Assembly (NCBI RefSeq): GCF_013409505.1
Contig: NZ_JACCBN010000001.1
Location: forward strand, 4,464,001 to 4,528,000
DNA: 64,000 nt
From: Actinomycetospora corticicola
Lineage (GTDB): Bacteria > Actinomycetota > Actinomycetes > Mycobacteriales > Pseudonocardiaceae
Direction: 5' to 3'
Shown one piece after another: positions 940-58,250 of this stretch (its first letter is position 1; each line of letters opens with the position of its first letter). The position numbers and the translations under genes are program-made. The notes below the pieces were generated by a model, which was not told where the DNA came from, did no database searches, and saw only the letters and a program-made list of their open reading frames with translations.

Positions 940-1563
940 GTGACCTCCGGGACCCGCCGCCGCCTCGCGCCCGACGTGCGCCGTCGCCAGGTGCTCGACG
1001 CGGCCGTCGCGGTGTTCTCCGAGGAGGGCCTGCACGGGGCGTCGATGGACGCCATCGCGGCCCGGGCGGGCGTGTCGAAACCGCTGGTCTACGCCCACGG
1101 CGGCACGAAGGACGAGCTGTTCGCCGCGTGCCTGGCCCGGGAGGCGGACCGGCTCGTCTCGACGTTGACCACGGCCGCTCTTCCCGACGACGGGTCGGGG
1201 GCCTCCAGCGCGGACGCGCGGCTGCGGCGGGCCCTCCGGGCCTTCTTCGGCGCCGTCACCACGCACCGCCAGGGCTGGACGGTCCTCTACCGGCAGGCCT
1301 CGACCGGGGAGTTCGCCGGCACCGTCGACGCCGCCCGCCGCGGCATCGTCCGGCGCGCCGCGGAGCTGCTCGCCGCCGAGCTGGGCGGGTCGGCCGAGGC
1401 GGCGGAACCCGTCGCCCACACCCTGGTCGGCGCCGCCGAGGGGCTGACCGACTGGTGGCTCGGGGCGGAACGCCCGGCCGGTGACCAGGAACCCGCCGAC
1501 CTCCTGGCCGACATGCTCATGGCGGTGGTCTGGCCGGGACTGGACGCGCTGCGCCGGCCCTGA
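940..1563 (+). CDS. TetR/AcrR family transcriptional regulator
   Basis: 207 codons. Residues about 14-60 form the TetR helix-turn-helix (VLDAAVAVFSEEGLHGASMD, then ARAGVSKPLVYAHGGTKDEL). The usual HFGSK/HFPSK motif is HGGTK here. The C-terminal half is the helical ligand-binding domain. GTG at 940 is chosen because no other start fits the domain boundary; TAAGAT lies 6 bases before it, so the mRNA is probably leaderless. It is divergent from an SCP2/acyl-CoA dehydrogenase operon, its likely target. Codons for LPDDGSG come from a copy of the dispersed palindrome at 1181-1196. Confidence 0.9.
   Translation: MTSGTRRRLAPDVRRRQVLDAAVAVFSEEGLHGASMDAIAARAGVSKPLVYAHGGTKDELFAACLAREADRLVSTLTTAALPDDGSGASSADARLRRALRAFFGAVTTHRQGWTVLYRQASTGEFAGTVDAARRGIVRRAAELLAAELGGSAEAAEPVAHTLVGAAEGLTDWWLGAERPAGDQEPADLLADMLMAVVWPGLDALRRP
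1181..1196 (+). repeat. Dispersed palindromic motif (TTCCCGACGACGGGTC)
   Basis: Exact copy of the window-wide 12-bp palindrome core CCCGACGACGGG, here inside the TetR gene in a frame that reads P-D-D-G-S. Confidence 0.75.
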
Positions 1564-1579
1564 TCCCGTGGCAGCTCCC

Positions 1580-1619
1580 GTGGCAGCGAAGCGTCGTTGC
1601 TGTCATCCAGTGGCAGGTT
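1580..1619 (+). repeat. 40-bp dispersed 3'-end element, copy 1
   Basis: Matches the other-strand sequence at 49210-49249 at 38 of 40 positions; similarity continues a further 10-15 bases. It starts 16 bases after the TetR stop codon. The heptamer GTGGCAG occurs at 1568, 1580 and 1610. No strong hairpin is apparent within it. Function unknown. Confidence 0.75.
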
Positions 1620-1772: not shown

Positions 1773-1776
1773 GGCG

Positions 1777-2019: not shown

Positions 2020-3510
2020 TCAGCGCCGCGACAACCGCCCGAGCGCCCGGCGGACCGGGTTGCGCGAGGCACCGGAGCCCAGCACCCCGGCGGCCCCGTC
2101 GGCGATGAGTGACGCCACGGTCTCGGCCGCGTCAGCCTTGTTCGCGCCGATGCCACCGGACGCGCCACGCTTGATCCAGCCGACGACGTAGGTGCCCGGG
2201 AGGTCCTGCACCCGCCCCTCGACGTGCGGCACCGTTCCCGACGACGGGTCGAACGGCAGCCCCGGCACGGCGCGGCCGCGGTGGCCGATCGCCCGGACGA
2301 CGACGCCCGCCTCCACGACCTCCCCGCCCACCAGCCGGACCCCGGTCACGTGGTCGGCGCCCACGATCTCCTCGAGGGCGGCGTGGAAGCGCAGCACCAC
2401 CCGCCGTCGGGAAGAGGACAGCACTCGCGACGCCGAGAGCAGCGGGACGTCGCGCAGCAGGCTCGCCGTCTCCGCAGTCCCGGCAGCGGCGATCTCGGCG
2501 GCCACCCGCGGGTCGAGGTCGTCGACGACGACCTCCAGGTCGTCCCGGCGCAGCAGGCCGAGCAGTTCGCCGCGGGTCCAGGACGCATCACGCGGCCCGC
2601 GCCGACCGAGCACGAGGACCTCGGCGACGGCGCTGCCGCGCAGCGCGGACAGGGCACCCGGAGCTACGCCGGACAGGGCGGCCGGGTCGGCGGCGAGCAC
2701 GCGCGCGACGTCCAGCGAGACGTTGCCGGTGCCGACGACCACGACGCGTGGGCCGGACAGATCCACGGCGGACGCCGGGACCTCGGGGTGGCCGTTGTAC
2801 CAGTGCACGACCGTGGTCGAGGCGAGGTTGCCCGGCAGGTCCTCGCCGGGGACACCCAGGTCGCGGGACTCGGCGGCGCCGACGGCGTAGATCACCGCGT
2901 CGTACTGCCGGCCCAGCGACTCGACGGTCACGTCGCGCCCGACCTCGACGCCCAACCGCAGCGTCACCCGGTGATGGTCGTGGTAGCGGGCGAAGTGCTC
3001 GCCGACCTTCTTGGTGGACGCGTGGTCGGGCGCCACCCCGAAGCGGACGAGGCCGCCCGGCTCGCGGAGCCGGTCGATGATCGTCACGTGGGCCGTGGTG
3101 TGCAGGAGCAGGTCCTCCACCGCGTACATCGCGGCCGGCCCGCTGCCCACCACCGCCACGTCGAGGCGGGGGAAGTCGGCGGGCAGCACGCGGTCGAAGC
3201 GCACCGGGTCCCACGCGTGGAACAGCGGGGACCCGGCGAGCGCCGCCGGGGCGTCCCGATCCGCGTAGTACTCGGCGTTGACCTCGGCGTACTCCCACAG
3301 GGAGCCCACCAGGTTCTCCACGGGGAACACCGCGTCGACCGGGCAGACCTCGGCGCACGCCCCGCAGTCGATGCAGGCCCGCGGGTCGACGAAGAGCATG
3401 TCGGTCGACCCGAAGTCGGGCTCGCCCGGCGCGGGGTGGATGCAGTTGACCGGGCACGCCGAGACGCACGAGGCGTCGGCGCAGCACGACTGCGTGATCG
3501 CGAACGGCAC
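2020..3510 (-). CDS. fprB: Ferredoxin/ferredoxin-NADP reductase fusion (FprB-like)
   Basis: 496 residues. The N-terminal 60 residues are a bacterial-type ferredoxin with two cysteine clusters: C10, C15, C19, C23 and C46, C49, C52, C56 (CIDCGACAEVCP). Then comes an adrenodoxin-reductase-like flavoprotein: FAD-binding VVGSGPAAMY at about 121-129, NADP-binding VVVGTGNVSLDVAR, and a C-terminal GASGGIGANKADAAETV. It passes electrons between NADPH, FAD and its own iron-sulfur domain. GTG at 3510 has AGAGG upstream, overlapping the stop of the diiron oxygenase gene, so the two form an operon and FprB may be its reductant. A palindrome copy (2235-2250) encodes DPSSGT. Confidence 0.9.
   Translation of the reverse strand: MPFAITQSCCADASCVSACPVNCIHPAPGEPDFGSTDMLFVDPRACIDCGACAEVCPVDAVFPVENLVGSLWEYAEVNAEYYADRDAPAALAGSPLFHAWDPVRFDRVLPADFPRLDVAVVGSGPAAMYAVEDLLLHTTAHVTIIDRLREPGGLVRFGVAPDHASTKKVGEHFARYHDHHRVTLRLGVEVGRDVTVESLGRQYDAVIYAVGAAESRDLGVPGEDLPGNLASTTVVHWYNGHPEVPASAVDLSGPRVVVVGTGNVSLDVARVLAADPAALSGVAPGALSALRGSAVAEVLVLGRRGPRDASWTRGELLGLLRRDDLEVVVDDLDPRVAAEIAAAGTAETASLLRDVPLLSASRVLSSSRRRVVLRFHAALEEIVGADHVTGVRLVGGEVVEAGVVVRAIGHRGRAVPGLPFDPSSGTVPHVEGRVQDLPGTYVVGWIKRGASGGIGANKADAAETVASLIADGAAGVLGSGASRNPVRRALGRLSRR
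2235..2250 (+). repeat. Dispersed palindromic motif
   Basis: Exact copy of the 16-mer seen at 1181-1196, here antisense within fprB, where it reads D-P-S-S-G-T in the gene frame. Confidence 0.75.
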
Positions 3511-4427: not shown

Positions 4428-4466
4428 GGTGCCGAACTCCTCCGTACCGACGGTCACTGTTACTTG

Positions 4467-4491
4467 CGGTTACCCGTACCAAAGGTAACCG
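4467..4491. promoter_or_regulatory. Operator-like palindrome upstream of the diiron oxygenase
   Basis: Perfect 8-bp arms CGGTTACC and GGTAACCG separated by 9 bases, 40 bases before the oxygenase start, with a further GTTAC half-site at 4460. Related GGTAA/TTACC sites lie before the FadE5-like gene at 12766-12796, so one regulator may control both. Confidence 0.6.
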
Positions 4492-4621
4492 ATACACCGT
4501 GTCCCACAGCGACCCACTGTCTCCGCCGTCACACCGCGACACGCCGATCGCCGTCTCTCCGGATGTATCGGACCTGATCTAGAGAGCGCCATACGCTCCG
4601 ATCGGACCCCCGGAGGTGGCC

Positions 4622-5812
4622 ATGGACCCGGTGCGCAACCCGTTCGCTCCCGGCGCGGGACAGCGACCCCCGGAGCTCGCCGGACGCGACCGGGAGCTGC
4701 ACGCCTTCGACGTCGTGCTCGAGCGGGTCGCCCGCGGACGGCCCGAACGCAGCCTCGTGCTCACCGGGCTGCGCGGCGTCGGCAAGACCGTGCTGCTCGG
4801 CGAGCTGCGCTCGATGGCCGTCCGGGCGGGCTGGGGGGCCGGGAAGATCGAGGCCCGGCCGGACGCCGACCTGCGCCGTCCGCTCTCGGCCGCCCTGCAC
4901 CGCGCGGTCCGCGACCTCGCCGTGCGCCACCGCGCCCCCGACCGGGTGGAGGAGACGCTCGGCGTCCTGAAGGCCTTCGCGCTCAAGGCGACCCCGCCGG
5001 ACGCCAAGCTCAAGGACCGCTGGCAGCCCGGGATCGACGCGCCCGTGCTGACCGGCCGCGCCGACTCCGGCGACATCGAGATCGACCTCGTCGAGCTGTT
5101 CGGCGTGGTGGCCGAGCTGGCGGCCGACGTCGGGGTCGGGGTCGCGCTGCTGATCGACGAGATGCAGGACCTGCAGCTCGACGACGTCTCCGCCCTGTGT
5201 GCGGCCTGCCACGAGCTCTCCCAGTCCGGCGCACCGCTCGTCGTCGTGGGCGCGGGCCTGCCGCACCTGCCCGCCGTGCTCTCGGCGTCGAAGTCGTACT
5301 CCGAGCGGCTCTTCCGGTACGTGCGGATCGGGCAGCTGGACCGGTCCGACGCCGACTTCGCGCTGACCGCCCCGGCGAAGCGGGAGGACGCCGAGCTGAC
5401 GCCGGCGGCCCTCGACGCGCTCTACGAGGTCTCCGGCGGCTACCCCTACTTCGTCCAGGCCTACGGCAAGGCGGCCTGGGACGCGGCGGTGCAGAGCCCC
5501 ATCGACGTCGACGACGTCCGGGTGGCCGCGCCGGACGCCGGCGCCGAGCTCGCCGTCGGCTTCTTCGGCTCCCGCTACGAGCGCGCCACGCCCGCCGAAC
5601 GCGAGTACCTGCAGGGCATGGCCGAGCTCGCCGAGGGTCGGGACGAGGCGGTGCAGACCGCGAAGCTCGCCGCCCACCTCGGCAAACGCGCCTCCTCGCT
5701 GTCCCCGGCGCGCGACAGCCTGCTGCGCAAGGGTCTGGTGTTCTCCGCCGAGCGCGGCTGGATCGCCTTCACCGTCCCGCACTTCGGGCGCTTCCTGCTC
5801 GGGCGGGACTGA
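4622..5812 (+). CDS. AAA/Orc1-Cdc6-like ATPase with C-terminal winged helix
   Basis: 396 residues. Walker A GLRGVGKT at 49-56, Walker B LLIDEMQDL near 176, then VVVGAGLPHLP (sensor-like). The C-terminal 100 residues (YLQGMAELAEG, KLAAHLGKRASSLSPARDSLLRKGLVF) look like a winged helix. This is the layout of ATPases found beside DNA-binding or toxin modules in actinobacteria, but here it stands alone. ATG 4622 follows GGAGG by 6 bases; the in-frame GTG at 4616 would sit inside that RBS. A strong hairpin ends the gene. Role unknown; not a phage or plasmid gene by context. Confidence 0.8.
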   Translation: MDPVRNPFAPGAGQRPPELAGRDRELHAFDVVLERVARGRPERSLVLTGLRGVGKTVLLGELRSMAVRAGWGAGKIEARPDADLRRPLSAALHRAVRDLAVRHRAPDRVEETLGVLKAFALKATPPDAKLKDRWQPGIDAPVLTGRADSGDIEIDLVELFGVVAELAADVGVGVALLIDEMQDLQLDDVSALCAACHELSQSGAPLVVVGAGLPHLPAVLSASKSYSERLFRYVRIGQLDRSDADFALTAPAKREDAELTPAALDALYEVSGGYPYFVQAYGKAAWDAAVQSPIDVDDVRVAAPDAGAELAVGFFGSRYERATPAEREYLQGMAELAEGRDEAVQTAKLAAHLGKRASSLSPARDSLLRKGLVFSAERGWIAFTVPHFGRFLLGRD

Positions 5813-5887
5813 GGTCGTGACTAGCCCGGACGAGTGAAGCTCCGCGGGGCGGTAACGAACGGCGGGCTCCGGACGACACCCCTCACG

Positions 5888-5934: not shown

Positions 5935-6028
5935 GCTTGCCGTCCAGGGTCGGAACGCATGCTGCGACACGCCCCGACGCGGCCCGCCCACCCGCCGAGG
6001 GATACCGACCTCCCCGTACGATTCGTGC

Positions 6029-6355: not shown

Positions 6356-8334
6356 CGACACCGCCTTCTCCGGACTCCCCCGGGGACACCCGCCTCGACG
6401 CCGCCGGCGGCGACTCCGCGGAGTCCGACGCCGAGGCGACGCGGGCGATGTCGGCCGACACCGCGCCCCCACGCGCGGCGGGGTACGACCCCGACGCCGA
6501 GGCCACGGTGCAGATCCCGCCGGTCGCGGGTCCGCCGCAGGACGGAAGCGATGTTCCTGACGACGGGTCGGGGCGCGGCTCCCGCCGCAAGCTCCTCATC
6601 GCGGGCGCGGCCGTCGTCGGCCTCCTCGCCGTCCTCTACGTCGGCGACCTCCTCGTGTCGGCGACCGACGTGCCCCGCGGCGTCACCGTCGCCGGCGTCG
6701 AGATCGGCGGGATGAACCGCCTCGCCGCCCAGGAGACGCTGCGCACCGAGCTCGGGCCGCGCGTCTCCCGGCCGGTCACCCTCGTCGCGGGCGGTGGCCC
6801 CGAGGCCCGCACGACGACGCTCGACCCGCGCACCGCCGGGCTCGACCTCGACGTCGCGGCCACCATCGACGAGGCGGGCGAGCAGCCGCTCAACCCCTTC
6901 ACCCGGCTGTCGTCGCTCTTCGCCGACCGCGAGATCGCCCCGATCAGCAAGGGCAACCCGGTCGCGATCGGCCAGGCCGTCGACGCGGCCCGCCCGCAGC
7001 TCGACCGGCCCTCGACGGAGGGCACGATCCGCTTCGAGGGCGACCGCCCGGTCCCCGTGCCGTCGGTCCCCGGCGCGATCGTCGACAGCCGCACCGCACC
7101 GGACGTCGTCCTCGCCCACTGGCTCGACTCCGCCCCGGTCGGCCTGCCCGTCACCGAGCAGCCCGTCACGGTCACCCAGGACGGCATCGACACCGCAATG
7201 CGCGAGGTGGCGACGCCCGCCGTCGCCGGCCCGGCCTACGTCATCGGCGACGCGAAGAACGCGACGCTCTCACCGGAGGAGATCGGGTCGTTCCTCAAGT
7301 TCGACCCGGACGGGTCGGGCGGGCTGACGCCGCGGGTCGACGTGCCCGCCGCCGAGCGGGTCGCCGACCGCGACCTGGCCTCGACCGAGGCCGAGCCGAA
7401 GGACGCCACGTTCGCCTTCGAGGGCGCGGCGGCCACCGTGGTGCCCGCCGTCACCGGCCGCACCATCGACTACCCGAAGACCTTCGAGGGACTCGTCGAG
7501 GCGCTCGGGCGCGAGGCCGACCCCACCCCGCCGACGACCTTCACCCCGCCCCCGGTGCCGCCGGGTGCGACGCCGGCCGCCCCGCCGCCCGCGAACGGCC
7601 GCGCGGTGAACGCCGTCTACACCACCACGCCGCCGAAGGTCACCACCGAGGCGCTGCAGGCCCTCGGCCCCGCCACCGTGATCGGCGAGTTCCAGTCGGG
7701 CGGGTTCGCGGCCGACTCCGGGCAGAACATCAAGCGGGTCGCCGAGATCGTCAACGGCGCCACGATCAAGCCGGGCGAGACGTTCAGCCTCAACGGCTTC
7801 ACCGGTCCCCGTGACGCGGGTCAGGGCTTCGTCGAGGCGGGCATCATCGACGACGGGGTGCCCGGGCGCGGCATCGGCGGCGGGATCTCGCAGTTCGCGA
7901 CGACGCTGTACAACGCCTCCTACTTCGCCGGCCTGCAGCAGGTCGAGCACAAGGAGCACAGCTACTACATCAGCCGCTACCCGGCGGGCCGCGAGGCGAC
8001 CGTCTTCGAGGGCGCCATCGACCTCAAGTTCCGCAACGACGGGGACACCCCGGTGCTCATCCGCACGCAGTGGACCCCGGCGTCGATCAAGGTCCAGATC
8101 TACGGTCAGAAGCGCTACGACGTGACGTCGCAGACCGGCCCGCGCACCAACCCCGTGGCGCCCGGCACCCGCGACCTCTCGGACAACCCCAGGTGCAAGC
8201 CGTCCAAGGGCGTCGGCGGCTTCACCATCACCGACACCCGGGTCCTGAAGGACGTCCGCACGGGCGAGACGAAGTCCGAGCCGCGCACCGTCCGCTACAA
8301 CCCGGAACCCGAGATCACCTGCAACGGCGGATGA
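6352..8334 (+). CDS. VanW family, membrane-anchored peptidoglycan-binding-like protein
   Basis: 660 residues. Residues 1-78 are acidic and disordered, 81-99 form one membrane segment (LLIAGAAVVGLLAVLYVGDL), and the outer part has two YoaR-like repeats (about 105-420), a Pro-rich linker (PPTTFTPPPVPPGATPAAPP) and a VanW domain (about 440-600: ETFSLNGFTGPRDAGQGF, GGGISQFATTLYNASYFAGL). It probably acts at the cell wall; the exact VanW activity is not established. The GTG start overlaps the previous stop and its own stop overlaps the next ATG, so translation is coupled. A palindrome variant at 6554-6569 encodes PDDGSG. Confidence 0.88.
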   Translation: MTTPPSPDSPGDTRLDAAGGDSAESDAEATRAMSADTAPPRAAGYDPDAEATVQIPPVAGPPQDGSDVPDDGSGRGSRRKLLIAGAAVVGLLAVLYVGDLLVSATDVPRGVTVAGVEIGGMNRLAAQETLRTELGPRVSRPVTLVAGGGPEARTTTLDPRTAGLDLDVAATIDEAGEQPLNPFTRLSSLFADREIAPISKGNPVAIGQAVDAARPQLDRPSTEGTIRFEGDRPVPVPSVPGAIVDSRTAPDVVLAHWLDSAPVGLPVTEQPVTVTQDGIDTAMREVATPAVAGPAYVIGDAKNATLSPEEIGSFLKFDPDGSGGLTPRVDVPAAERVADRDLASTEAEPKDATFAFEGAAATVVPAVTGRTIDYPKTFEGLVEALGREADPTPPTTFTPPPVPPGATPAAPPPANGRAVNAVYTTTPPKVTTEALQALGPATVIGEFQSGGFAADSGQNIKRVAEIVNGATIKPGETFSLNGFTGPRDAGQGFVEAGIIDDGVPGRGIGGGISQFATTLYNASYFAGLQQVEHKEHSYYISRYPAGREATVFEGAIDLKFRNDGDTPVLIRTQWTPASIKVQIYGQKRYDVTSQTGPRTNPVAPGTRDLSDNPRCKPSKGVGGFTITDTRVLKDVRTGETKSEPRTVRYNPEPEITCNGG

Positions 8335-12869: not shown

Positions 12870-15296
12870 GTGGGCACGACGAGGGCGATCGAGTCGCTGC
12901 GCACCCTGCTGGTCACCGCCGACCCCGGCCTGGCCCGGCTGCGCCTCGCCTCCGTGGCGGTCGCGTCGATGGCCCTCGCCGCCGGACTGGTGGCCTGGGG
13001 ACGGTCCGCCCTCGTCCCCGACGAGCCCGTGACGGTCGTGCTCTTCGCGGGCGTCCTGGCGATGATCTCCAACCTGGCGGTCAACGAGAAGACGGTGGCG
13101 CGCCAGCGCGTCACCACCGCGCTGATGGTGCTGCCGGCGCTCGCGTCGACCACTGTCGGGACGCTGCTCTCGCCGTACCGCCTCGTCGCCGACGTGGTGT
13201 TCGTCGCCGTGATGATCGGCGCGGTCTACGTCCGCCGGTACGGCCCGCGCGGGTTCGCCCTGGGCATGGGCGCGTTCATGCCGTTCTTCTTCACCCAGTT
13301 CCTCCAGGCGAAGCCGCCGCAGATCCCGGCGCTCTGCGTCGCGGTGCTGATCGGCCTGGGGGTGACCCTGCTGCTGCGTGGGTTCCTCTTCGCCGAACGC
13401 CCGGAGCGCACGCTGCGCCGGCTGGTCGACGCCTTCCGCGCCCGCGCCCACGAGATGGTGCTGCGGGTCGACGACGTGCTCGCCGAGGCCCAGCAGGGCC
13501 AGGCACGGGGACCGGGCCACGAGCACGAGCAGGTCGGCGACGCCGTCCTGGAGCGGCTCTACCGGGCGCGGCGGCGCCTCAACGAGACCGCCCTGCTGGT
13601 GGAGGACCAGCTCGAGCACAGCGCCGCGGACCGGGTGTGGCCGGGACTGGAGAACGACCTGCTCGCGCTGCGGGTCGTCGACACCGAGCTGGGGCTCGAG
13701 CGGCTCGGCGTCGCCGTCCGCCGGCTCGTGCGCGCCGAGGACGCGCAGCAGGCGAGCCCGCTCGCGCTGACGGCGCTGCGCACCGGACTCACGCACCTCG
13801 CTCGCGCCACCGCCCGGCGGGTGCCCCACCAGGAGATCCTCGGCGAGCTCGCCGACGCGCGCGGCGCGGTCGCGGGCCTGGTCGCCGACACCAGCCGCGG
13901 CCACGAACGCGTCCAGCGCACCGCGTTCGGGGTCCGGCGGATCGCCGACTCGGTCGAGTACGCCCAGCGCGACCTGCCCGCCCGTCCCGGGGAGACGATG
14001 ACCGGGGGCATCGTGCTGCCCGGCGTGCCGCGGGCGCCGGCCGCGTCCCCGGTCGCCCTCGCGTCCGCGCCCCAGCCCGACGGCATCGCGCAGGGCCGTC
14101 CCGACGACGAGGCCTCCCGACGACGGGAGGGGTCGGATCCCGGCCCCGAGGACCCGTCGTCGGGAACGGGGAGCGGGGAGACGGACCGCGACCGCGGCCT
14201 CCTGCTCACCACCCGCCAGTCGATCCAGGTGGGTGTGGGGACCACGATCGCGATCGGGCTGGGCGAGCTGCTCGCCCCGTCGCGCTGGTACTGGGCGGTG
14301 ATCGCGTCCTTCGTCGTGTTCGCCAACACGGCCAGCCGCGGCGACCTGCTGTCGCGGGGGTGGGGCCGCGTCGTCGGCACCGTGGGCGGGGTCGCGGCCG
14401 GGATGGGCCTGGCCTTCCTCACCGCCGGGAACCAGGTGCTCTCGCTGGTCCTGCTGTTCGTGTGCGCGTTCCTCGCGCTGTACCTCGTGCGCGTGTCGCC
14501 GGGCATGCTGGCGTTCTGGATCACCGCCGTGCTCGCGCTGGTGTACGGGATCATCGGGCAGTTCAGCGTCCAGACCCTCGTGCTCCGCATCGAGGAGACG
14601 CTGGTCGGAGTGCTCGCAAGCGTGGTCGCGGCCTTCCTCGTGCTCCCCAAGGGGACCCGCGAGGCGTTCGGCGAGGCCGTGGAGGACTTCGTGGACACCG
14701 CGGACGGGGTGCTCGATGCGGCGGTGGCGACGATCCTCGGCCGGGGCCGCGGCGGGGCCGCCGCGCTCGAGGGCGCCCGCGACATGGACACCTCCCTGGC
14801 GACGCTGCGTGCCCGCACGAAGCCGCTGCTGGTCGACACCCCGAAGCGGCGCGGCCGCTCGAGCCACCGGCGCGCGTTGCGCGTGTTCACCGTCGTCGAC
14901 CACTACGCCCGCTCCCTCGCCCGGACCGCCGCCGACCTCGGGTCCGACCCGACGCCGGGGTGGGCGGCGACGCTCGAACCCGCTCTCGCCGCGGTGCGCG
15001 CGAACCTCGACGGGCTGCGTGACGTCGTGGTGCGCGGTCGGCGGCGCTCGGACGGCGCGCAGGTGCTGGTGCACTCCGCCGAGGACCTCGTCGACCGGGC
15101 CGAGGAGCAGGCCGCCCGCACCCAGGACCCCCGCCGTCGCAACGACGCCCTCGTGGTCACGCGACTGCTGCGCCGCATCGACCAGGCCGTCGTGGCGCTC
15201 GCGGTGGACCTGGGGGCCGCGGCGGACCCGGACGAGGATCAGTCGCCGAGCAGCCGGGCGAGCGCGGGGTTGGTGAACACCCGGTCCGGGTCGTAG
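12870..15296 (+). CDS. FUSC-family membrane protein (aromatic-acid-exporter-like)
   Basis: 808 residues. Two hydrophobic blocks (about 25-170 and 455-590), each with several helices, are separated and followed by long charged helical regions. This is the FUSC layout of putative aromatic-compound efflux proteins. The second block contains [20 protein letters not shown] and [20 protein letters not shown], which match the family well. The linker (residues about 395-435) holds two opposed copies of the dispersed palindrome (14114-14129, 14151-14166). GTG 12870 has a GAGGGGAG-like RBS. The 3' end overlaps the convergent oxidoreductase gene by 58 bases. Substrate unknown. Confidence 0.85.
14114..14166 (+). 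repeat. Two opposed copies of the dispersed palindrome
   Basis: 14114-14129 (CTCCCGACGACGGGAG, fully symmetric outside a 4-base centre) and 14151-14166 (reverse complement of the 16-mer at 1181). Both lie in the low-complexity linker of the FUSC gene. Confidence 0.75.
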
Positions 15297-22588: not shown

Positions 22589-22604
22589 TTCCCGACGGCG
22601 GGTG
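22589..22604 (+). repeat. Dispersed palindrome variant in an intergenic region
   Basis: TTCCCGACGGCGGGTG, the GACGGC variant, between two divergent MFS genes. It is one of the few copies outside a gene. Confidence 0.6.
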
Positions 22605-47227: not shown

Positions 47228-48688
47228 GTGCCCGTTTCGACCGACCGGAACCTGCCTCCCCGGCGTGCGCGCACCAGTCGTCGGGAGCTCGCCGCGCATC
47301 CCGGTTTCCTCCGGCTGCTCACCGTCCGGCTCGGCGCCCAGTGGGGCGACGGGGTCTTCCAGGCGGCGCTCGGCGGCGCGGTCCTGTTCAACCCGGAGCG
47401 CCAGTCCGACCCGGTGCTCGTGGCCCTCGGCCTCGCCGTCGTGCTGCTGCCGTACTCCCTCGTCGGCCCGTTCGCGGGCGCCCTGCTCGACCGCTGGGAC
47501 CGCCGCCGGGTCTTCCTCGTCGCGGGCGGGGTCCGGGCCCTGCTCACCCTCGGCACCGCGGCGGTGGTCGCGGCCGGCGTGACCGGCCCCGCCCTCTACC
47601 TCGGCGCCCTCACCACGATCGGCGTCAGCCGGTTCGTCCAGGCCGGGCTCTCCGCCGCCCTGCCGCACGTGGTGGCCCCGCGTCGCCTGGTCGCCGCGAA
47701 CTCGCTGGTCACCACCAGCGGCGCGGTGGCCGCCGCGTTCGGCGCCGCCTGCGCGTTCGGGCTCACGGGGCTGATCGGCGCGGGCGACGCGCAGTCCGGG
47801 ATCGCCGCCGCGGCCGCCGTCCTCGGGTCGCTCGTGATCGTCGCGGTGGCGGTCGGGTTCCGGCCGGGCTCGCTCGGTCCGGACGACCCGTCGGAGGCCG
47901 CCCGGGCGATGAAGGCGGTGGCCCTGGGTCTCGCCGACGGCGCACGCGCCGCGCGGGAGGCGCCGGGCGTCGTGGCGGCGTTCTGGGCCGTCGCGGCCCA
48001 CCGCCTCGCCTTCGGCGTCGCGACGCTCGTGATGCTCCTGCTGATGCGCAACGGGCTCACCGACTGGGGCCCGCTGCGCGCCGGGGTCGCCGGGCTCGGC
48101 GAGACCGTGGTGGCGGCCGCCGCCGGACTCGGCGTCGCCGCGGTGGTGACGCCCTGGCTCACCGCCCGGATCGGGCGACCCGCGACGGTGCGGGTGATGC
48201 TCGGGCTCGCCGTCGCGGCGCTGCTCACGCTCGGCCTGCCGATGACCCTCCCGACGATCCTGGGGGCCGCCTTCGTGCTCGGCCTCGTCGGCCAGGCCAT
48301 CAAGCTGTGCGCCGACGCCGCCGTGCAGCGCGAGGTCGACGACGCCCGCCGCGGCCGGGTGTTCGCGCTCTCCGACACCGTCTTCAACGTCACCTACGTG
48401 TCGGCCGTGGCCGTCGCGGCGCTGCTCAGCCCGCCGGACGGCCGCTCGGCCGCCCTCGTCGTGGTCGCGGCCGCGCTCTACCTCCTCGGACTCGGGGTGC
48501 ACGAGATCGCGCTGCGTCGCGGCGTGCCGGTGGGGGACACCCGCGGTCCCGACGGCGGGGCCGCCGTCCCCGCTCAGGGCGGCACCCACCCGGAGGTGTC
48601 CTCGGCGATCTCGACGTCGGCCGTCCCGTCCGCGTCGGTGTCGGCCAGCAGCACGTCCCACCGCTCCGCGGCCCCCGACACCCCGTAG
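47228..48688 (+). CDS. MFS transporter
   Basis: 486 residues, 12 helices. N-terminal RLGAQWGDGVFQAALGGAVL, motif A-like DRWDRRRVFLVAGG, then GVSRFVQAGLSAALPHVVAP, and ADAAVQREVDDARRGRVFAL between helices 10 and 11. It resembles the MFS_3/efflux group in which a GDGVFQ start is usual. Substrate unknown. GTG 47228 has TAGCGT 8 bases upstream. The tail after residue 440 is hydrophilic and the last 115 bases overlap the convergent repeat-protein gene. A palindrome variant at 48548-48559 encodes PDGG. Confidence 0.88.
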   Translation: MPVSTDRNLPPRRARTSRRELAAHPGFLRLLTVRLGAQWGDGVFQAALGGAVLFNPERQSDPVLVALGLAVVLLPYSLVGPFAGALLDRWDRRRVFLVAGGVRALLTLGTAAVVAAGVTGPALYLGALTTIGVSRFVQAGLSAALPHVVAPRRLVAANSLVTTSGAVAAAFGAACAFGLTGLIGAGDAQSGIAAAAAVLGSLVIVAVAVGFRPGSLGPDDPSEAARAMKAVALGLADGARAAREAPGVVAAFWAVAAHRLAFGVATLVMLLLMRNGLTDWGPLRAGVAGLGETVVAAAAGLGVAAVVTPWLTARIGRPATVRVMLGLAVAALLTLGLPMTLPTILGAAFVLGLVGQAIKLCADAAVQREVDDARRGRVFALSDTVFNVTYVSAVAVAALLSPPDGRSAALVVVAAALYLLGLGVHEIALRRGVPVGDTRGPDGGAAVPAQGGTHPEVSSAISTSAVPSASVSASSTSHRSAAPDTP

Positions 48689-49152
48689 GCCGCCTCGGCG
48701 CGGCCGTCCCCGTCGTGGTCGACGAGCAGCTGGTCGGCCCGGCCGTCGCCGTCGAGGTCGCAGACCACCTCGCGGCCGGCCGGATCGTGGTCGACCTCCG
48801 CCCACCCGCCGTCGGGAAGCCCGTCGCCGTCGGTGTCGATCGTCGCCGTCGTCGAGCCGGCGCGGCCGCGGACGTCGGTGAACGCCACCGCGCGGGCCAC
48901 CGAGGCGTCCCAGAGCCCCCGGCCGGAGGGGTCAGCGAACGCGCGCTCGGGGCGCCCGTCGTCGTCGAGGTCGAGCACCGCGCGGTCGGCCACCCCGTCG
49001 CCGTCGGTGTCCCACAGCGCGTCGTCGACCCGGCCGTCACCGTCGAAGTCGAGCGCGACGGCGTCGGGAGCGGCTCCGCCCAGCGCCCGGTCGGCCGGGG
49101 AGCGGTGGTGGTGGACCGGTCCGCGCCCGGTGCCGAACCGATAGGTGATCAC
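48574..49152 (-). CDS. DxDxDG calcium-motif repeat protein
   Basis: 192 residues, strongly acidic. About eight DxDxDG loops of EF-hand/thrombospondin-3 type: DFDGDGRVDD, DTDGDGVADR, DLDDDGRPER, DTDGDGLPDG, DLDGDGRADQ, DHDGDGRAEA, DTDADGTADV. Each loop would bind calcium. No signal peptide is seen in the frame, and the first residues (MITYRFGTGRGPVHHHRSPA) are not hydrophobic, so it may be cytoplasmic or exported in another way. The 3' end overlaps the MFS gene by 115 bases. Palindrome variant 48803-48818 encodes LPDGGW. No further family assignment. Confidence 0.78.
   Translation of the reverse strand: MITYRFGTGRGPVHHHRSPADRALGGAAPDAVALDFDGDGRVDDALWDTDGDGVADRAVLDLDDDGRPERAFADPSGRGLWDASVARAVAFTDVRGRAGSTTATIDTDGDGLPDGGWAEVDHDPAGREVVCDLDGDGRADQLLVDHDGDGRAEAAYGVSGAAERWDVLLADTDADGTADVEIAEDTSGWVPP
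48803..48818 (-). repeat. Dispersed palindrome variant
   Basis: CACCCGCCGTCGGGAA in the repeat-protein gene, reading L-P-D-G-G. Confidence 0.55.
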
Positions 49153-49264: not shown

Positions 49265-50761
49265 CTACGACTCGACGATCCCCTCGGCCCGCGCCCACGC
49301 CAGTAGTTCCGCCTCGGCCTCGTCCCGGTCGAGCGGGCCGCGCTCCAGGCGCACGTCCTTGAGGTGCCGCCACGCCCTCCCGACGACGGGTCCGGGCTCG
49401 ACCCCGAGCAGCTCCATGATCGCGTTGCCGTCGAGGTCCGGGCGCACGCGCGCGAGGTCCTCCTCGGCCGAGATCTGCGCGATCCGCTCCTCGAGGTCGT
49501 CGTAGGTCCGCTGCAGGGCGGCCGCACGGCGCTTGTTGCGGGTGGTGGAGTCCGACCGGACCAGCCGGTGCAGGCGCTCCAGCAGCGGGCCGGCGTCGGT
49601 GACGTAGCGCCGGACGGCGGAGTCGGTCCACTCGCCCTTGCCGTAGCCGTGGAAGCGCAGGTGCAGGAACACCAGCTGGGAGACGTCGTCGATCAGCTGC
49701 TTCGGGTAGCGCAGCTCGCGCAGCCGCTTGCGGGTCATCTTCGCGCCGACCACCTCGTGGTGGTGGAAGCTGACCCGGTTGCCCGGCTCCACCCGACGGG
49801 TGGCGGGCTTGCCGATGTCGTGCAGCAGCGCGGCGAGGCGCAGGGTGAGGTCCGGGCCGTCGGTCTCCCGGTCGATCGCCTGCTCCATGACCGTCAGCGA
49901 GTGCTCGTAGACGTCCTTGTGCTGGGCGTGCTCGTCGATCTCCAGGCGCATGGCCGGCACCTCGGGCAGGACCACGTCGGCGAGCCCGGTGTCGACCATC
50001 AGCTCGATGCCCGCCCGCGGGTGCGCCCCGAGGAGCAGCTTCGAGAGCTCCGCCTGGACGCGCTCCGCGGTGATCCGGTCCAGCTGCGGCGCCAGGGCCG
50101 TCATCGCCTCCCGCACCCGGGGGGCGACGGTGAAGCCGAGCTGCGAGACGAAGCGGGCCGCGCGCAGCAGGCGCAGCGGGTCGTCGTCGAAGGAGCGTTC
50201 GGGCTCGATCGGGGTGTCGAGCACGCCCCGCGCCAGCGCCGCGAGGCCGCCGCAGGGGTCGACGAACGTGCGGTCGGGCAGCGAGACGGCCATCGCGTTG
50301 GCGGTGAAGTCCCGCCGCACCAGGTCGCCCTCGACGCTGTCGCCGAACGCCACGACGGGGTTGCGGGACACGCCGTCGTAGGTGTCCGCCCGGAAGGTCG
50401 TGACCTCCAGGGTCACCCCGTGGCGGGCGAGTCCGATCGTCCCGAACTCGATCCCCGTGTCCCAGACGGCCTCGGCCCAGCCGGAGAGGATCTTCTTGAC
50501 CTGCGCCGGACGCGCGTCGGTGGTGAAGTCCAGGTCGCTCGACAGGCGCCCGAGCAGCGCGTCGCGGACGCTCCCGCCGACCAGGTAGAGCCGGTGTCCG
50601 GCGTCGGCGAAGCGCCGGCCGAGCTCGTCGGCGACGGGGGAGTAGCGCAACAGCTCCACCACGGCAGTCTGACCGGCGTCCCCGGGCTCGTGCTGCGGGT
50701 CCGAGGTCTTCCCGACGGCGGGTCCGAGGTCCGGACGGGCACGGTGGGTTGCGGCGGGCAC
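49265..50761 (-). CDS. pcnA: CCA tRNA nucleotidyltransferase (class II poly-A-polymerase-like) with HD domain
   Basis: 498 residues. Nucleotidyltransferase signature GHRLYLVGGSVRDALLGRLS and DLDFTTDARP at about 55-85, RRDFTANAMAVSL, RLLRAARFVSQLGFTV, and an HD domain from about residue 285 (AALLHDIGKPATR). It adds or repairs the CCA end of tRNA. GTG 50761 has TAGGCT (complement of 50770-50775) 8 bases upstream. The first 30 residues contain a palindrome variant (50710-50725, GPAVGK). Another copy (49377-49392) encodes PVVG near the C-terminus. Equivalent to Rv3907c. Confidence 0.95.
   Translation of the reverse strand: MPAATHRARPDLGPAVGKTSDPQHEPGDAGQTAVVELLRYSPVADELGRRFADAGHRLYLVGGSVRDALLGRLSSDLDFTTDARPAQVKKILSGWAEAVWDTGIEFGTIGLARHGVTLEVTTFRADTYDGVSRNPVVAFGDSVEGDLVRRDFTANAMAVSLPDRTFVDPCGGLAALARGVLDTPIEPERSFDDDPLRLLRAARFVSQLGFTVAPRVREAMTALAPQLDRITAERVQAELSKLLLGAHPRAGIELMVDTGLADVVLPEVPAMRLEIDEHAQHKDVYEHSLTVMEQAIDRETDGPDLTLRLAALLHDIGKPATRRVEPGNRVSFHHHEVVGAKMTRKRLRELRYPKQLIDDVSQLVFLHLRFHGYGKGEWTDSAVRRYVTDAGPLLERLHRLVRSDSTTRNKRRAAALQRTYDDLEERIAQISAEEDLARVRPDLDGNAIMELLGVEPGPVVGRAWRHLKDVRLERGPLDRDEAEAELLAWARAEGIVES
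49377..49392 (+). repeat. Dispersed palindromic motif
   Basis: CTCCCGACGACGGGTC, exact core, antisense in pcnA, reading G-P-V-V-G. Confidence 0.7.
50710..50725 (+). repeat. Dispersed palindrome variant
   Basis: TTCCCGACGGCGGGTC at the 5' end of pcnA, reading G-P-A-V-G-K. Confidence 0.6.
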
Positions 50762-51362: not shown

Positions 51363-53626
51363 TCGCAGGAGGGGCCCGGCGGACCCTCCTGCCCCTCGCG
51401 GTCGCGGTCCTCTGCCTCGTCCTGACGGCGGGTGCGTGGGCCCCGGCGGCCCGCGCCGCCCCGGCGCAGGGCCCGTCGTCGGGACCGGTGGCGCTGGCGC
51501 TCGACCTCGCCCCCCGCGTCGTCGGGCCGGGGACCACCGAGCTGACCGTCACCGGCCGGTTGACCAACCAGGGGGCCGTCCCGGTCCGCGACCTCGGGAT
51601 CCGGGCGCAGCGGGGCGCTGCGGTGGCCGACGACGGCGAGGTCGACCAGGCGCTCGTCGGAGCGATCTCGCCCGATCCCGCCGCCGTCGCACCGCCCCTC
51701 ACGCCGGTGGCCGCCCAGCTCGACCCCGGCGACTCCCTGCCGGTGACGTTGCGCGTCCCGCTCACCGCGCTCGCCCTGACCGCGCCCGGCGTCTTCCCCG
51801 TGGTCGTCGAGGTGAACGGCACCCCCGGCGACGGACCGCCGGAGCGGGTCGCCGCGAAGCGCTTCCTGCTGCCGGTCACCGGCCTCCCGGGCCGGCCCGC
51901 GGCCGCGCCCCGGACGCCCACCGCGGTGTCGCTGCTCTACCCGCTCACCGACCGGCCGCGCCGGCTCCCGGTCCCACCCGGTGCCCCCACCCTGCTCGCC
52001 GACGACTCGCTCGCCGCGTCCTTCGCCCCGACCGGACGTCTCGGCGGGCTGGTCACGGCCCTCACCCGTGCTGCGCCGCTCGGCAGCCCCGCGGCGGCCG
52101 CGACGTGTCTCGCCGTCGACGCCGACCTCCTGGAGACCGCCCGCGACATGAGCGGGGGCTACCAGGTGACGAGCCCGACCGGGCCCCGACCGGGGGCCGG
52201 TGCCGCCGTCGCCGGGCAGTGGCTCGCGTCCGTCCGCGCCGCGGCGGCCGGGCGCTGCGTGGTCGCGCTGCCCTACGCGGACGCCGACCTGCTCGCCACC
52301 AGCCGCGGCAACATGAGCGACCTGACCACGGCCGCGCGCACGCTCGGCGCCCAGCGCACCGCCGACCTGCTCGGGGTCACGCCGGTGCCCGACACCACGG
52401 TGCCCGCGGGCGGGCTGCTCGACGAGCGCAGCCTCGCCGACCTCGCGGGAGGCGGCGCCCGCGCCCTCGTGGTGGACGGCTCCACGCTGACCGGCGGTGT
52501 CCCGGCGGGTGGGGTGGGCCGCTTCCCCGGGGCCGTGGGCGGGAGCAGCCCGCTGGCGGTCGCGACCGACCCGACGGCCGCCCGCGCGCTCGACCGGGGC
52601 CCGGACACGGCCGCGCCCACCGGGGGGTCGACCGCCGCGGACGGTGCCCTCGCCACCCAGGACGCCCTGGCCGTCGTCGCGCTGCGGGCCCTCGCCCCGA
52701 CCCCCGCCGCGGCGCCGGTCCTGCTCGCCCCGCCCGCCGACTGGGACGTCGACGGGGACGCCGCCGCCGCGCTGCTGGCGGGGCTCACCGACCTGACCGG
52801 CCGCGGGCTGGTCACCCCCGTCGACGCCGGCACCCTCGTCGCACGCGCCGCGGCGGACCCGGCCACCCCCGCGGTCGCCCTCGGGCCCGGCGACCGCGCC
52901 GCCGTGTCGGACCAGTCGTCCGCCGTCCTCGACGAGATCCGCGGCGTGCGCGACGACCAGCGCGACCTCCTCGCGGCGAGCCGCCAGGACCGGGCCGGCT
53001 CGCCGACCCCGGCCGAGTACGTCTCGACCCTCACCGGCGCCCTGCTCCGCAGCCTCTCCGCCGCCGGGCGGGGCGACCCCGCCCTGCAGCAGGCGGCCGC
53101 CACGGACGTCGCCGCCCAGATGCGCACGCTGCGCGGCCTGGTGCGGGTCATCCAGCCCGCCGGCACCTACTCGCTCGGCTCCAGTGACGCCCCGCTGCTG
53201 CTCACCGTCGAGAACCAGTTGCCGGTCGCGGTCGACGTCACCGTGGTCCTCGAACCGACCCCGGGGGTCCGGGCGTCCCCGGTCGCCGTGCGCCAGGTGC
53301 CCGCCTTCGGCAGCTACCAGTTCCAGGTCGCGCTCGACGTGGAACGCGCCGGCCAGTTCACCATCGACGCGACCGCCCGCACGCCCGGCGGCGAGACCCT
53401 CGGCCCCACGGCTCGTCTCCTGCTGCGATCCACCGCCTACGGCACGATCACGGTGTGGTTGACCGCGTCCGCAGCCGTCGTGCTGGTGATCCTGGCGAGC
53501 CTGCGGGTGGCGCTGCGGGTCCGGGCGGCCCGACGCGAGCGCAGGTCCCGACGCAGGCGACGCCCCGGGACGCCGACGGACCCCGACCCGTCGACGACGG
53601 ACGACCGCACGCTGCAGGCCCGATGA
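51359..53626 (+). CDS. DUF6049 exported membrane protein
   Basis: 755 residues. Signal peptide 1-36 ([20 protein letters not shown], cleavage after ARA), a large extracytoplasmic part rich in Ala, Pro and Asp, one membrane helix near the end ([20 protein letters not shown]), and an Arg-rich cytoplasmic tail. The outer part has NEW3-like beta segments ([20 protein letters not shown]). The family always precedes murJ in actinobacteria (Rv3909) and its role is unknown; a wall-synthesis partner is inferred. Start overlaps mutT4 stop and the end overlaps the murJ start (ATGA). Palindrome copy 51470-51485 reads GPSSGP. Confidence 0.88.
51470..51485 (-). repeat. Dispersed palindromic motif
   Basis: GGCCCGTCGTCGGGAC with exact 12-bp core, just after the signal peptide of the DUF6049 protein. 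Confidence 0.65.
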
Positions 53627-56136: not shown

Positions 56137-56288
56137 GCGGCACCGTCCACGGACGGGTTGCTCCGTCGTGACAGGTCTCGCGCCCGGGCCTGCGTCCACG
56201 ACGGGGGACCCGCCGTCCCGTACTCTCGCCGGTGACGTGCTCCCCGGGGTGGGAGTCGCGCGGGTGGGGCGAACCCGGAGGTGACGGG

Positions 56289-58250
56289 GTGGACGAGGCG
56301 GTGAGCGCACGGCGCGTGCCGAGCCCGTCCCCCGCGCGGACGGGATCCGGGGCCGTCGCCGATCCGGCCGAGGACGCCGCCGCCGTCGAGACCGACGCCG
56401 CGACCGGGACCAACGGCACGAACGGGACGCGCGCGACCACGCCCGACCACGAGCCCGGTCGGGACGCGGACGGCGACGCCGACGAGGACTCCCCGACGAC
56501 GGCGGTCCCGCCGGTGGCCTCGCCGTCCACGCCCGCCGGGTCGACCGGGTCGAAGCCCGCACCCGGGATCGACGGACCCACCACCTTCCTGCCCGACGCC
56601 GCCCGGCGCGGCGGCACCGGGGGCCGGACCGCGAGCCGCACCGGGTCGTCCCGGGGCGGCCGACGACCCACCCCGCCGCCGGGTCCGCGCCCGCCGTCGT
56701 CGGGACCGATCCCGGTCGGTCCCCGCGGCGCCCTCGTCCCCGGCACCGTGATCGCCGACCGCTACCGGCTCGTGGCCGAGGTCGGCCGCGACCGCGCCGC
56801 CGACGCCGCCCTGTGGAAGGCGCGGGACACCACGCTCGAGCGGGACGTGGCGATGACGCTGCTGGTCGGCGGCTGGCAGGCCGACGCCCGCGCGTCCTCC
56901 GCGCTCTCCCGCGCGACCCGGTCCGCGCACTTCGCGCACCGCCACGCCGCCCGCGTCCTCGACGTCATCCAGCCCGGCTCGAGCCGTCTGCCCACCGGGG
57001 TGCTGGGCGCCGCCGTGGCGGAATGGACGCCCGGCCGCGACCTCGCGGAGCTCGTCGCGGGGGGTCCGCTCTCGCCGAGCGCCGCCCTGCGGGTCGTCGA
57101 GCCGCTGGCGCAGGCGGTCGCGGACGCCCACCGGGCCGGGCTGGTCCTCGGTCTCGACCACCCGCAGCGGGTGCGGGTCACCGCGCGGGCGAGCGCCCGC
57201 CTGGCGTTCCCCATGCCGCGCGGCGACGCGGAGGTCGACGACGACGTCCGCGGACTCGGCGCGATCCTCTACCTGCTGCTGACCGGACGCTGGCCCTCCA
57301 CCGACGGCTCGACCCCGGCCGGGCTGACGGCCGCCCCGCGCACGTCCGCCGGCGGGATCGCCCCGGTCCGGGACCTGCGCCCCGCCCTCCCCGTGGGGCT
57401 CGCCGCGCTGGTCGACCGCACGCTCGACGCCACCGGCGGGATCCGTACCGCCGCGGCGGTCCACGGGCTCGTCCGGCAGCTGCGCGAGGGCGCCGAGGAC
57501 GACGGTGTGCTGCTGCCGCTCACCGAGGACGGCGTCCAGCTCGCGGACGACGACGGGGCGGTGTGGCACCCCGACGACTCCGAGGGCGAGCGCCGGGACC
57601 CCGACACCCGCCGCAAGCTGCGGATCGGGGTCACCCTGCTCGTGGTGGCGGTGCTGGCGATCGTCGCCTTCGTGGCCTTCCAGGCCGTCTCGCTGCTCGG
57701 CGGGGGCCCGTCGTCGGGACCTCCGCTGGTCATCCCGACCTCCGCCGCTCCCGCGCCCGCCCCCACCGCGGCGCAGAACCCGGCCGTGCCGGCGGTCCCG
57801 GCCGCACCGGGCACGCCCGTGCAGCTCGCGAGCATCGCCGTCTACGACCCCTCGGGAAACCCCGACAACCCCGACCGGGTCGGTCGTGCGGCCGACAACG
57901 ACCCGTCGACGACGTGGTCGACCTCGGACTACCGGCAGCAGTTCCCGGCCCTCAAGCCCGGCATCGGACTGATGACGACCTTCCGGGCCCCGAGTCGGCC
58001 CACGCAGGTGATCGTGCGGTCCCCGAGCCCCGGCACCACCATCGAGATCCGGTCCGCGGCCGCGCCGAACCTGCCGCTGGCGCAGACCCAGCTGCTCGGC
58101 ACCGGCACCGTCTCCGGGGACACCCTCACGATCCCGCTGCAGGCCGGGGCGCCCACCTCGAACCTGCTGGTCTGGATCACGGCGCTGGGCCAGTCCGACG
58201 GCCAGTACGCCAGCGAGATCGCCGAGGTGACGGTGATCGGCGGGAGCTGA
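56289..58250 (+). CDS. Membrane-anchored pseudokinase with a C-terminal sugar-binding-like domain
   Basis: 653 residues. Disordered 1-150, kinase-like 155-420 (GTVIADRYRLVAEVGRDRA), membrane helix about 445-470 (GVTLLVVAVLAIVAFVAFQA), and an outer discoidin-like domain from about 510 (SIAVYDPSGNPDNPD, NDPSTTWSTSDYRQQF). The beta-3 Lys is replaced (RDVAMTLL), and the HRD and DFG motifs are lost (HRAGLVLGLDHPQRVRV). So it should not phosphorylate. The equivalent part of Rv3910 binds FhaA in mycobacteria. GTG 56289 follows GGAGGTGA by a few bases. It sits 152 bases after murJ. Confidence 0.88.
   Translation: MDEAVSARRVPSPSPARTGSGAVADPAEDAAAVETDAATGTNGTNGTRATTPDHEPGRDADGDADEDSPTTAVPPVASPSTPAGSTGSKPAPGIDGPTTFLPDAARRGGTGGRTASRTGSSRGGRRPTPPPGPRPPSSGPIPVGPRGALVPGTVIADRYRLVAEVGRDRAADAALWKARDTTLERDVAMTLLVGGWQADARASSALSRATRSAHFAHRHAARVLDVIQPGSSRLPTGVLGAAVAEWTPGRDLAELVAGGPLSPSAALRVVEPLAQAVADAHRAGLVLGLDHPQRVRVTARASARLAFPMPRGDAEVDDDVRGLGAILYLLLTGRWPSTDGSTPAGLTAAPRTSAGGIAPVRDLRPALPVGLAALVDRTLDATGGIRTAAAVHGLVRQLREGAEDDGVLLPLTEDGVQLADDDGAVWHPDDSEGERRDPDTRRKLRIGVTLLVVAVLAIVAFVAFQAVSLLGGGPSSGPPLVIPTSAAPAPAPTAAQNPAVPAVPAAPGTPVQLASIAVYDPSGNPDNPDRVGRAADNDPSTTWSTSDYRQQFPALKPGIGLMTTFRAPSRPTQVIVRSPSPGTTIEIRSAAAPNLPLAQTQLLGTGTVSGDTLTIPLQAGAPTSNLLVWITALGQSDGQYASEIAEVTVIGGS
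57705..57720 (-). repeat. Dispersed palindromic motif
   Basis: GGCCCGTCGTCGGGAC with exact core, just outside the membrane helix of the pseudokinase, reading G-P-S-S-G-P. Confidence 0.65.

Follow-up and report, generated by a model that had tools for sequence, protein, structure and literature searches.

The chromosome of Actinomycetospora corticicola (6.17 Mb) carries 2,138 copies of the asymmetric word KTCHBGACGNCGRG, as compared to 20 for the reversed-pattern control. This word is likely a tag by which DNA of the bacterium's own kind is recognised, since it is held intact between sister species, silent codon positions included, and is nearly absent from prophage DNA. Among the possible kinds of tag, one of the uptake-sequence type is tentatively favoured over a Chi-like signal.

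The repeat had been described in the first-pass annotation as a 12-bp palindrome, and neither the symmetry nor the length was borne out. The reverse complement of the 12-bp core is CCCGTCGTCGGG and the core is thus non-palindromic, with an A nearly fixed in core position 5 while any base is tolerated in the mirror position 8. The true unit behind the core is the motif KTCHBGACGNCGRG(T), in which letter preferences span 14-15 bp in the order K-T-C-(C/a/t)-(C/t/g)-G-A-C-G-N-C-G-(G/a)-G-(T). Eight of these letters are nearly fixed and further ones are preferred. Single changes in positions 3, 6, 7, 8, 9 and 11 are rare or near the level in the motif-poor congener G010, and the second letter is merely preferred, the alternatives there being likewise in excess over G010. 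Pair tables of the stem letters of the core displayed no compensating changes and hence no hairpin covariation. An initial attempt at iterative motif refinement drifted into coding background and was discarded.

The tolerant 14-bp form was found 21 times in the window, that is, the whole 64-kb stretch of DNA analysed. The copy at 1181..1194 (+) lies on the same strand as the TetR-type regulator gene that holds it (940-1563, +) and reads LPDDG, and the oxidoreductase gene 2020-3510 (-) holds one antisense copy at 2235..2248 (+) and one on its own strand at 2400..2413 (-). Other antisense copies are located at 4958..4971 (-) in gene 4616-5812 (+), at 33470..33483 (+) in gene 33328-34341 (-), at 57707..57720 (-) in gene 56289-58250 (+), at the 3′ ends of genes 39456-40043 (+) and 59767-60780 (+) (40027..40040 and 60768..60781, both -) and at the 5′ end of the poly(A) polymerase gene 49265-50761 (-) (50709..50722, +). 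Gene 18367-19995 (+) contains an antisense copy at 18985..18998 (-) and another near its 3′ end at 19895..19908 (+). Copies were also found within a VanW-domain gene (6352-8334, +) at 6554..6567 (+), within gene 42361-45288 (-) at 44668..44681 (-) and within gene 47228-48688 (+) at 48546..48559 (+). Called intergenic are 22589..22602 (+), 48805..48818 (-), in this case by a simple gene predictor, and 38602..38615 (+), the last upstream of the penicillin-binding protein gene 36168-38573 (-). Two inverted pairs are formed by 14098..14111 (+), in the FUSC gene 12870-15296 (+), with 14153..14166 (-), 55 bp apart, and by 51419..51432 (+), in gene 51359-53626 (+), with 51472..51485 (-), 53 bp apart. 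Exact 12-bp cores outside the tolerant pattern occur at 14116..14127 (+), 26396..26407 (+) and 49379..49390 (+), the latter in the same poly(A) polymerase gene.

All ten exact cores listed in the first-pass annotation were recovered, seven on the forward and three on the reverse strand, as were its looser copies at 6554, 40025 and 44666. Its seven one-change variants all exist, one of them at 50711 and not 50712, and two more, at 2400 and 24622, had been overlooked. Its claim of a repeat far above chance stood in every shuffle: dinucleotide shuffles of the window gave a mean of 0.34 exact cores (largest 2 in 100 shuffles) and synonymous-codon shuffles of its predicted genes 1.0 (largest 4 in 200 shuffles), compared to the 10 seen. 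In the sampled genes, synonymous shuffles gave 30.1 copies (sd 4.7, 20 shuffles) and 374 were observed in CDS.

Genome-wide, the exact 12-bp core was found 813 times versus 14 for the reversed pattern, and the word was split evenly between the strands (1,067 and 1,071), as it was in two sampled 400-kb regions (73/81 and 71/65). It occurs in genes and spacers and is used in all six reading frames, in line with the earlier description of copies read in different frames, and spacers are about twofold richer (0.59 vs 0.30 per kb). Some copies form close inverted pairs. The genic copies comprise 277 sense and 196 antisense (p 0.0002 for the sense excess), an excess that probably reflects codon use; as both are common, an RNA-level element was rejected. 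In the genus sample of 18 genomes, including our own (G000), five species are motif-rich, with four relatives carrying 1,615-1,707 copies; three other congeners are intermediate (289-570 copies), making eight motif-bearing species, and ten are motif-poor (57-120). In the motif-poor G010, the lists of the ten top-ranking 9-, 10- and 12-mers showed no other prominent enriched word. Pieces of G015 and G009 yielded 35 copies, of which 11 have T in position 1, versus 297 of 499 (p 0.001), and 11 have A in position 4, versus 68 of 499 (p 0.01); part of the 35 is background that leans the same way (T in 3 and A in 6 of 12 motif-poor sites). A core-genome bias of the word was tested for and none was seen. 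Genes absent from both compared relatives had 5 copies in 21 kb (0.24/kb), nearly the density of genes common to both (0.28/kb), and coding bases unaligned to G015 were denser (28 in 60 kb vs 81 in 297 kb); both observations count against an uptake function.

The word is conserved as DNA, silent codon positions included. Third codon positions under the fixed letters were conserved between sister species in 244 of 264 cases, compared to 1505 of 1967 in the flanks, and all nine held letters were kept in the close relative G014 at 66 of 96 sites; sliding that mask aside lowered the fraction to 0.30. Amino acid changes were more frequent in motif codons (41/139) than in flanking codons (81/517). 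With six frames in use and amino acids changed more often under the motif, a cause at the level of the peptide was rejected, and the synonymous shuffles and third-position conservation likewise argue against it, so that on this point the first-pass annotation was right; a reader acting on DNA, as it proposed, is also the right kind of explanation. Copies turn over mainly by substitution: of 136 sites compared with G014, 64 were kept, 40 were unaligned, 28 were lost without a deleted base and 4 with one, where the 28 of 32 lost sites refers to deletions in the aligned 14 positions, insertions on the G014 side falling outside the screen. In the more distant G015, sites were kept no better than slid masks (16/90 vs 0.159), which also speaks against uptake.

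Prophage DNA is nearly devoid of the word, with one copy in a 40-kb piece where about 14 were expected. The tile first noticed had no copies (7.1 expected) and was the only such tile among 70, and a further 20 kb, examined afterwards, had one (7.1 expected). Copies on the same strand also avoid each other. Pairs 120-3000 bp apart numbered 199 where 244.3 (sd 10.5) were expected, a depletion seen separately in two disjoint portions of the genome (z -3.4 and -2.7) and vanishing beyond 3 kb, whereas opposite-strand pairs at 120-3000 bp were at or above expectation. From this same-strand spacing, the word may be read in a polar manner.

Our tentative preference, with considerable doubt, is that the word tags self-DNA in the way of an uptake sequence. 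A receptor would bind the word on DNA released by relatives, and tagged DNA would have preference in import and recombination; point mutation together with this bias would let the tag spread. A protein presumably reads the word, its bias would act during DNA exchange, and the ComEA/ComEC of the genome itself are the putative import route. To our knowledge, transformation has not been reported in Actinomycetospora. The genomic profile, without strand bias and with a spacer excess and inverted pairs, matches that of uptake sequences, for which no strand bias, a spacer excess and some close inverted pairs are described in portions of PMC1939737 and in PMC2346458 (part 1). Micrococcus luteus, also an actinomycete, transforms by means of ComEA/ComEC and Flp pili according to sections of PMC6370729 and PMC12849477. 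ComEC was found in 16 of the 18 genomes, with a ComEA-like gene adjoining it in our own; it is equally present in motif-poor congeners, which counts against uptake, as does the failure to see the known receptor type, a minor pilin of a type IV pilus, N_methyl pilins being found in 0/18 genomes and PilM_2 in one (G013, a weak match). As these type IV pilin and PilM markers are lacking, the word is not classed as a DUS. A scan with letter patterns over 23% of our own genome and 0.4 Mb of G014 yielded no Flp/Tad genes. Uptake in Haemophilus is independent of the orientation of the sequence (parts of PMC1939737), and an uptake function therefore does not predict the same-strand spacing.

Such spacing is what a Chi-like signal would account for, in which an enzyme processing DNA ends, such as RecBCD, reads one strand, stops degrading and starts recombination; each orientation would serve breaks from one side, and each strand would thus need its own series. 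The observed depletion at 120-3000 bp is indeed confined to same-strand pairs. The near-absence from prophage DNA is in its favour, as are RecC in 17 of 18 genomes and the row of recC, recB and recD, with RecB, RecC and RecD domains, in our own. We nevertheless hold this reading to be rather unlikely. Chi words elsewhere have 5-8 letters. A word of 14-15 bp with eight nearly fixed letters contrasts with the 8-letter Chi of E. coli, as given in an excerpt of PMC7644769. Motif-poor congeners also have RecC, G010 among them without a comparable enriched word, and the RecC of motif-rich species (identity 0.67-0.69 to that of motif-poor ones) is no more diverged than that of intermediate species (0.66-0.68). 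In the first 805 residues of RecC, 101 positions are fixed differently in motif-rich and motif-poor species (4 rich, 2 intermediate and 4 poor rows). RecC as a reader of new specificity is at most a lead, since the intermediate species carry most of the motif-rich letters and since residue 85 of the alignment, one of few rich-only changes, falls in a motif copy within recC.

Less probable still are sites of a clade-specific nucleoid or chromosome-organising protein, for which thousands of specific sites in genes and spacers, twice as dense in the latter, would be suitable. Against this, 1.4 Mb of chromosome displayed no clear positional or strand pattern, strand-blind spacing was near random (CV 1.07 and 0.91), and without a drive it would be hard to see how selection could maintain upwards of 2,000 individual sites. 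As to the chromosome-organising protein suggested earlier, a KOPS-type guide is not supported, the strands being balanced, and other organisers are possible. The earlier suggestion of a modification protein found no support in the two methyltransferase families examined, and a HIP1-like word, made and kept by a methyltransferase with linked mismatch repair, is very improbable here. The precedent is HIP1, an established word of high iteration associated with orphan methyltransferases (part of PMC4390886), but the present word is long and asymmetric, and neither of two large methyltransferase families matches its distribution among species; C5 methyltransferases (PF00145) were found in 2 of 5 motif-rich and also in 4 motif-poor species, and N6_N4_Mtase (PF01555) in 1 of 5 motif-rich species. 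Small mobile palindromes inserting across the genome in the manner of REP, also proposed at first, can hardly be credited. Alignment gaps relative to the distant G015 do occur more often at sites than at a distance of 30-90 bp (CDS 27/79 vs 0.128; noncoding 6/9 vs 0.377), but relative to the close G014 there is no clear excess (CDS 7/75 vs 0.070; noncoding 0/15 vs 0.237). The asymmetry, the absence of stem covariation, the 28 of 32 sites lost without a deleted base and the REP-associated transposase Y1_Tnp being found in 0/18 genomes all argue against them.

Returning to the self-DNA tag, this may, although with yet more reservation than for the uptake type as such, be the first genome-wide one of an actinomycete: 14-15 bp long, arisen within one genus, read on a single strand and acting over about 3 kb, marking resident versus phage DNA, working with ComEA/ComEC or RecBCD without type IV pilins, and neither DUS nor Chi. 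Literature searches for the letters of the core gave no match, and none combined DNA uptake sequence, Actinobacteria, overrepresentation and natural transformation; among the matches listed, those on Actinomycetospora repeats concerned other subjects and none dealt with uptake words of actinomycetes. We know of uptake-type tags with thousands of copies from two Gram-negative families only. If a high-GC actinomycete has a tag of this sort, the origin of the tag could be traced stepwise through congeners whose dose is near background, intermediate or full, and the per-strand spacing rule opens the polarity of reading to testing. Should DNA exchange be governed by the tag, which DNA these bacteria accept would depend on it.

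The word shares with DUS (Neisseriaceae) and USS (Pasteurellaceae) that it is short, non-palindromic, limited to a clade and present in more than 1,000 copies, without strand bias, genic and spacer-enriched, partly in inverted pairs and turning over mainly by substitution. It differs in its letters and its actinomycete host, in that no N_methyl pilins were found and PilM was seen in 1/18 genomes, and in a same-strand spacing not expected from uptake that is blind to orientation. Like Chi of RecBCD/AddAB it is spread over the whole chromosome of a bacterium with RecBCD genes, the polar reading being suggested here by spacing, but it has 14-15 bp against about 8 and is not enriched in RecC-bearing motif-poor congeners. 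Like HIP1 of cyanobacteria it is highly iterated, clade-limited and found in genes and spacers, whereas HIP1 is an 8-bp palindrome with methyltransferases and the Actinomycetospora word is asymmetric and does not track PF00145 or PF01555. REP/RAYT elements are likewise short and dispersed, and at first sight the word seemed equally capable of forming a hairpin; it however lacks stem covariation, no Y1_Tnp gene was found, and its sites change mainly by substitution. From KOPS, the orientation of which follows the replication arms, it differs in being strand-balanced, both genome-wide and in the two 400-kb regions.

The Actinomycetospora corticicola genome (G000) is a single contig of 6,166,488 bases, in which the window spans G000:C1:4464001-4528000, and the ten exact 12-bp cores reported by the first-pass annotation were recovered in the window at 1183, 2237, 14116, 14153, 19897, 26396, 33472, 49379, 51472 and 57707, against a mean of 0.34 in the dinucleotide-shuffled window. 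Letter preferences were taken from counts of single-letter variants in 800 kb of G000 and, for comparison, 418 kb of G010, a congener poor in the motif. Changed letters were rare or near the G010 level at positions 3, 6, 7, 8, 9 and 11, all bases were accepted at position 10, and positions 1, 4, 5, 13 and 15 took a restricted set of letters. Positions 12 and 14 were slightly leaky (at 14, A 17 vs 1 and C 40 vs 7), and position 2 was merely preferred, with A, C and G at 32, 88 and 99 in G000 and 3, 29 and 26 in G010. The core had been described as a palindrome, but the letters that would pair show no joint variation and the palindrome or hairpin was abandoned. All later counts rest on the 14-bp pattern KTCHBGACGNCGRG, picked from the first 800 kb, which fixes position 2 so that looser copies are undercounted and some are scored as lost.

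The word is real, belongs to the DNA level, is limited to a clade and is conserved between sister species. The 1,316 predicted G000 genes sampled (1.23 Mb) hold 374 copies, whereas synonymous shuffles within genes gave 30.1 (sd 4.7, maximum 40, 20 runs) and shuffling of whole codons gave 14. The sister species A. chiangmaiensis DSM 45062 (G014) aligned over 69% of a 400-kb region at 88% identity and kept all nine fixed pattern letters at 66/96 sites, against 0.30 for a mask slid aside. Third codon positions under the fixed letters were identical in 244/264 cases versus 1,505/1,967 alongside (p 1.6e-10). In the more distant G015, sites were kept no better than background (16/90 vs 0.159, slid mask), as expected if this species has few copies, and ungapped sites that differed from G000 changed the amino acid in 41/139 motif codons versus 81/517 flanking codons.

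The genome-wide count in G000 was 2,138, consistent with the 2,198 expected from 499 sites in 1.4 Mb. Among all 18 genomes of the genus, G001 followed with 1,707, G016 with 1,702, G014 with 1,665 and G006 with 1,615; G015 (570), G009 (521) and G013 (289, in an assembly 59% complete) were intermediate, and the remaining ten had 57-120 copies each. The reversed pattern gave 5-27 per genome. DNA identity to G000 places the motif-bearing species together: over query bases ~3,940-5,440, G001 reached 90%, G006 84%, G013 80% and the ten motif-poor species 75-77%, and longer alignments gave 88, 87, 80 and 80% for G014, G016, G015 and G009. In one better conserved gene the motif-poor species were 84-87% identical to G000. 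Across 296 phylum-wide genomes, a sample with no further genome of this genus, G000 had 397 copies of a 14-base form and no other genome more than 4, and 68 loci from other genera (1.34 Mb) held 15 motif copies and 4 reversed.

In 1.8 Mb of G000 samples and G014, 473 of 625 sites were intragenic, 128 were intergenic and 24 straddled a gene border (0.59 per kb outside genes vs 0.30 inside). Gene borders, here as in the shuffles, were drawn by a simple purpose-made codon-usage predictor; gene starts are therefore inexact, and part of what is scored as intergenic may be coding. The intragenic sites were 277 sense and 196 antisense. Strands were even genome-wide and in both 400-kb regions (73/81, 71/65), and small tiles varied around this balance. 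Neighbouring sites were oppositely oriented in 353/593 cases versus 303 (sd 12) by permutation, and pairs less than 60 bp apart were in excess overall (26 vs 13 expected). Same-strand pairs at 120-3000 bp were depleted in G000 (199 vs 244 expected, sd 10.5), which was seen again in one sampled part with tiles (z -3.4), in a second, non-overlapping part (z -2.7) and in G014 (z -2.6), the last being partly homologous to the second part. The depletion vanished beyond 3 kb, and opposite-strand pairs were at or above expectation. This suggests a polar reading with a reach of ~3 kb, in which a copy renders a second one redundant on its own strand only. Inverted motif pairs 25-27 bp apart separate two convergent gene pairs, at G000:C1:1504520 and G000:C1:4620350, and could be terminator hairpins. 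Four matches to a DnaA-box word lie in G000:C1:4524001-4624000, a possible origin, and the regions sampled contained no others. An F6 sRNA (Rfam RF01791) lies at 5883-5938 on the + strand of the window (53.5 bits vs a cut-off of 46).

Insertion, raised earlier in the form of small mobile palindromes, may apply to individual sites but is not the main route of change, as alignment gaps were commoner at sites than nearby in G015 (CDS 27/79 vs 0.128, noncoding 6/9 vs 0.377) but not in G014 (CDS 7/75 vs 0.070, noncoding 0/15 vs 0.237). Y1_Tnp was found in 0/18 genus genomes. In G014, 64 of 136 G000 sites were kept, 28 were lost without a deleted base, 4 with one and 40 were unaligned, a count that screened for deleted bases only. 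Many losses were one or two substitutions, and in 11/28 the sole pattern-breaking change, by hand count, fell within the first two letters, a tolerant part of the word. A modification protein had also been proposed, and neither PF00145 (6/18 genomes) nor PF01555 (4/18) tracks the motif. G000 has a C5 DNA methyltransferase gene at G000:C1:291217-292230 on the + strand, of a family that is patchy (6/18).

The word likely marks self DNA. Of the 70 tiles of 20 kb from G000, a single one was motif-free and proved to be prophage, with terminase, portal, head protease, capsid and connector families and 73.7% G+C. As it had been picked out for its zero, a further 20 kb of the same prophage was then counted and contained 1 copy versus ~7 expected (hand Poisson P ~0.007). 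The nearly motif-free prophage, whose genes include capsid E, was sampled without its ends as L239, L222 and L240 (G000:C1:2992001-3032000). Against depletion in foreign DNA, genes without a counterpart in either relative had near-normal density (5 in 21 kb), and site counts did not track codon-usage deviation over 70 tiles. A role in DNA uptake is the favoured but tentative reading, at somewhat less than even chances. ComEC is present in 16/18 genus genomes and in G000 adjoins a ComEA-like gene (L007:16420-17268, + strand), which has a motif copy close to its 5' end (core at G000:C1:136459). The pilin receptor markers looked for were not found, and for this reason the word is not classed as a DUS: N_methyl pilins were in 0/18 genus genomes and PilM_2 in 1/18, the sole match (L118, G013:C324) being weak at 22.2 bits within a 743-aa frame. 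In Micrococcus luteus, transformation is served by Flp/Tad genes according to PMC6370729 and PMC12849477; a scan of 23% of the G000 genome by letter patterns found none, a result of little weight. Next after uptake comes a Chi-like signal, for which RecC is present in 17/18 genus genomes, although the length of the word keeps it from being classed as Chi. The G000 recC (L061:16481-19756, - strand) has a motif copy close to its 5' end.

The core letters had no match in the literature searched. Accounts of HIP1 (PMC4390886) and DUS dialects (PMC3630211) were also consulted. Uptake sequences, as described in PMC1939737 and PMC2346458, have more than 1000 copies, lack orientation bias, are intragenic with an excess in spacers and form few inverted repeats, and in copy number, orientation, gene and spacer placement and inverted repeats the G000 word shares these traits.
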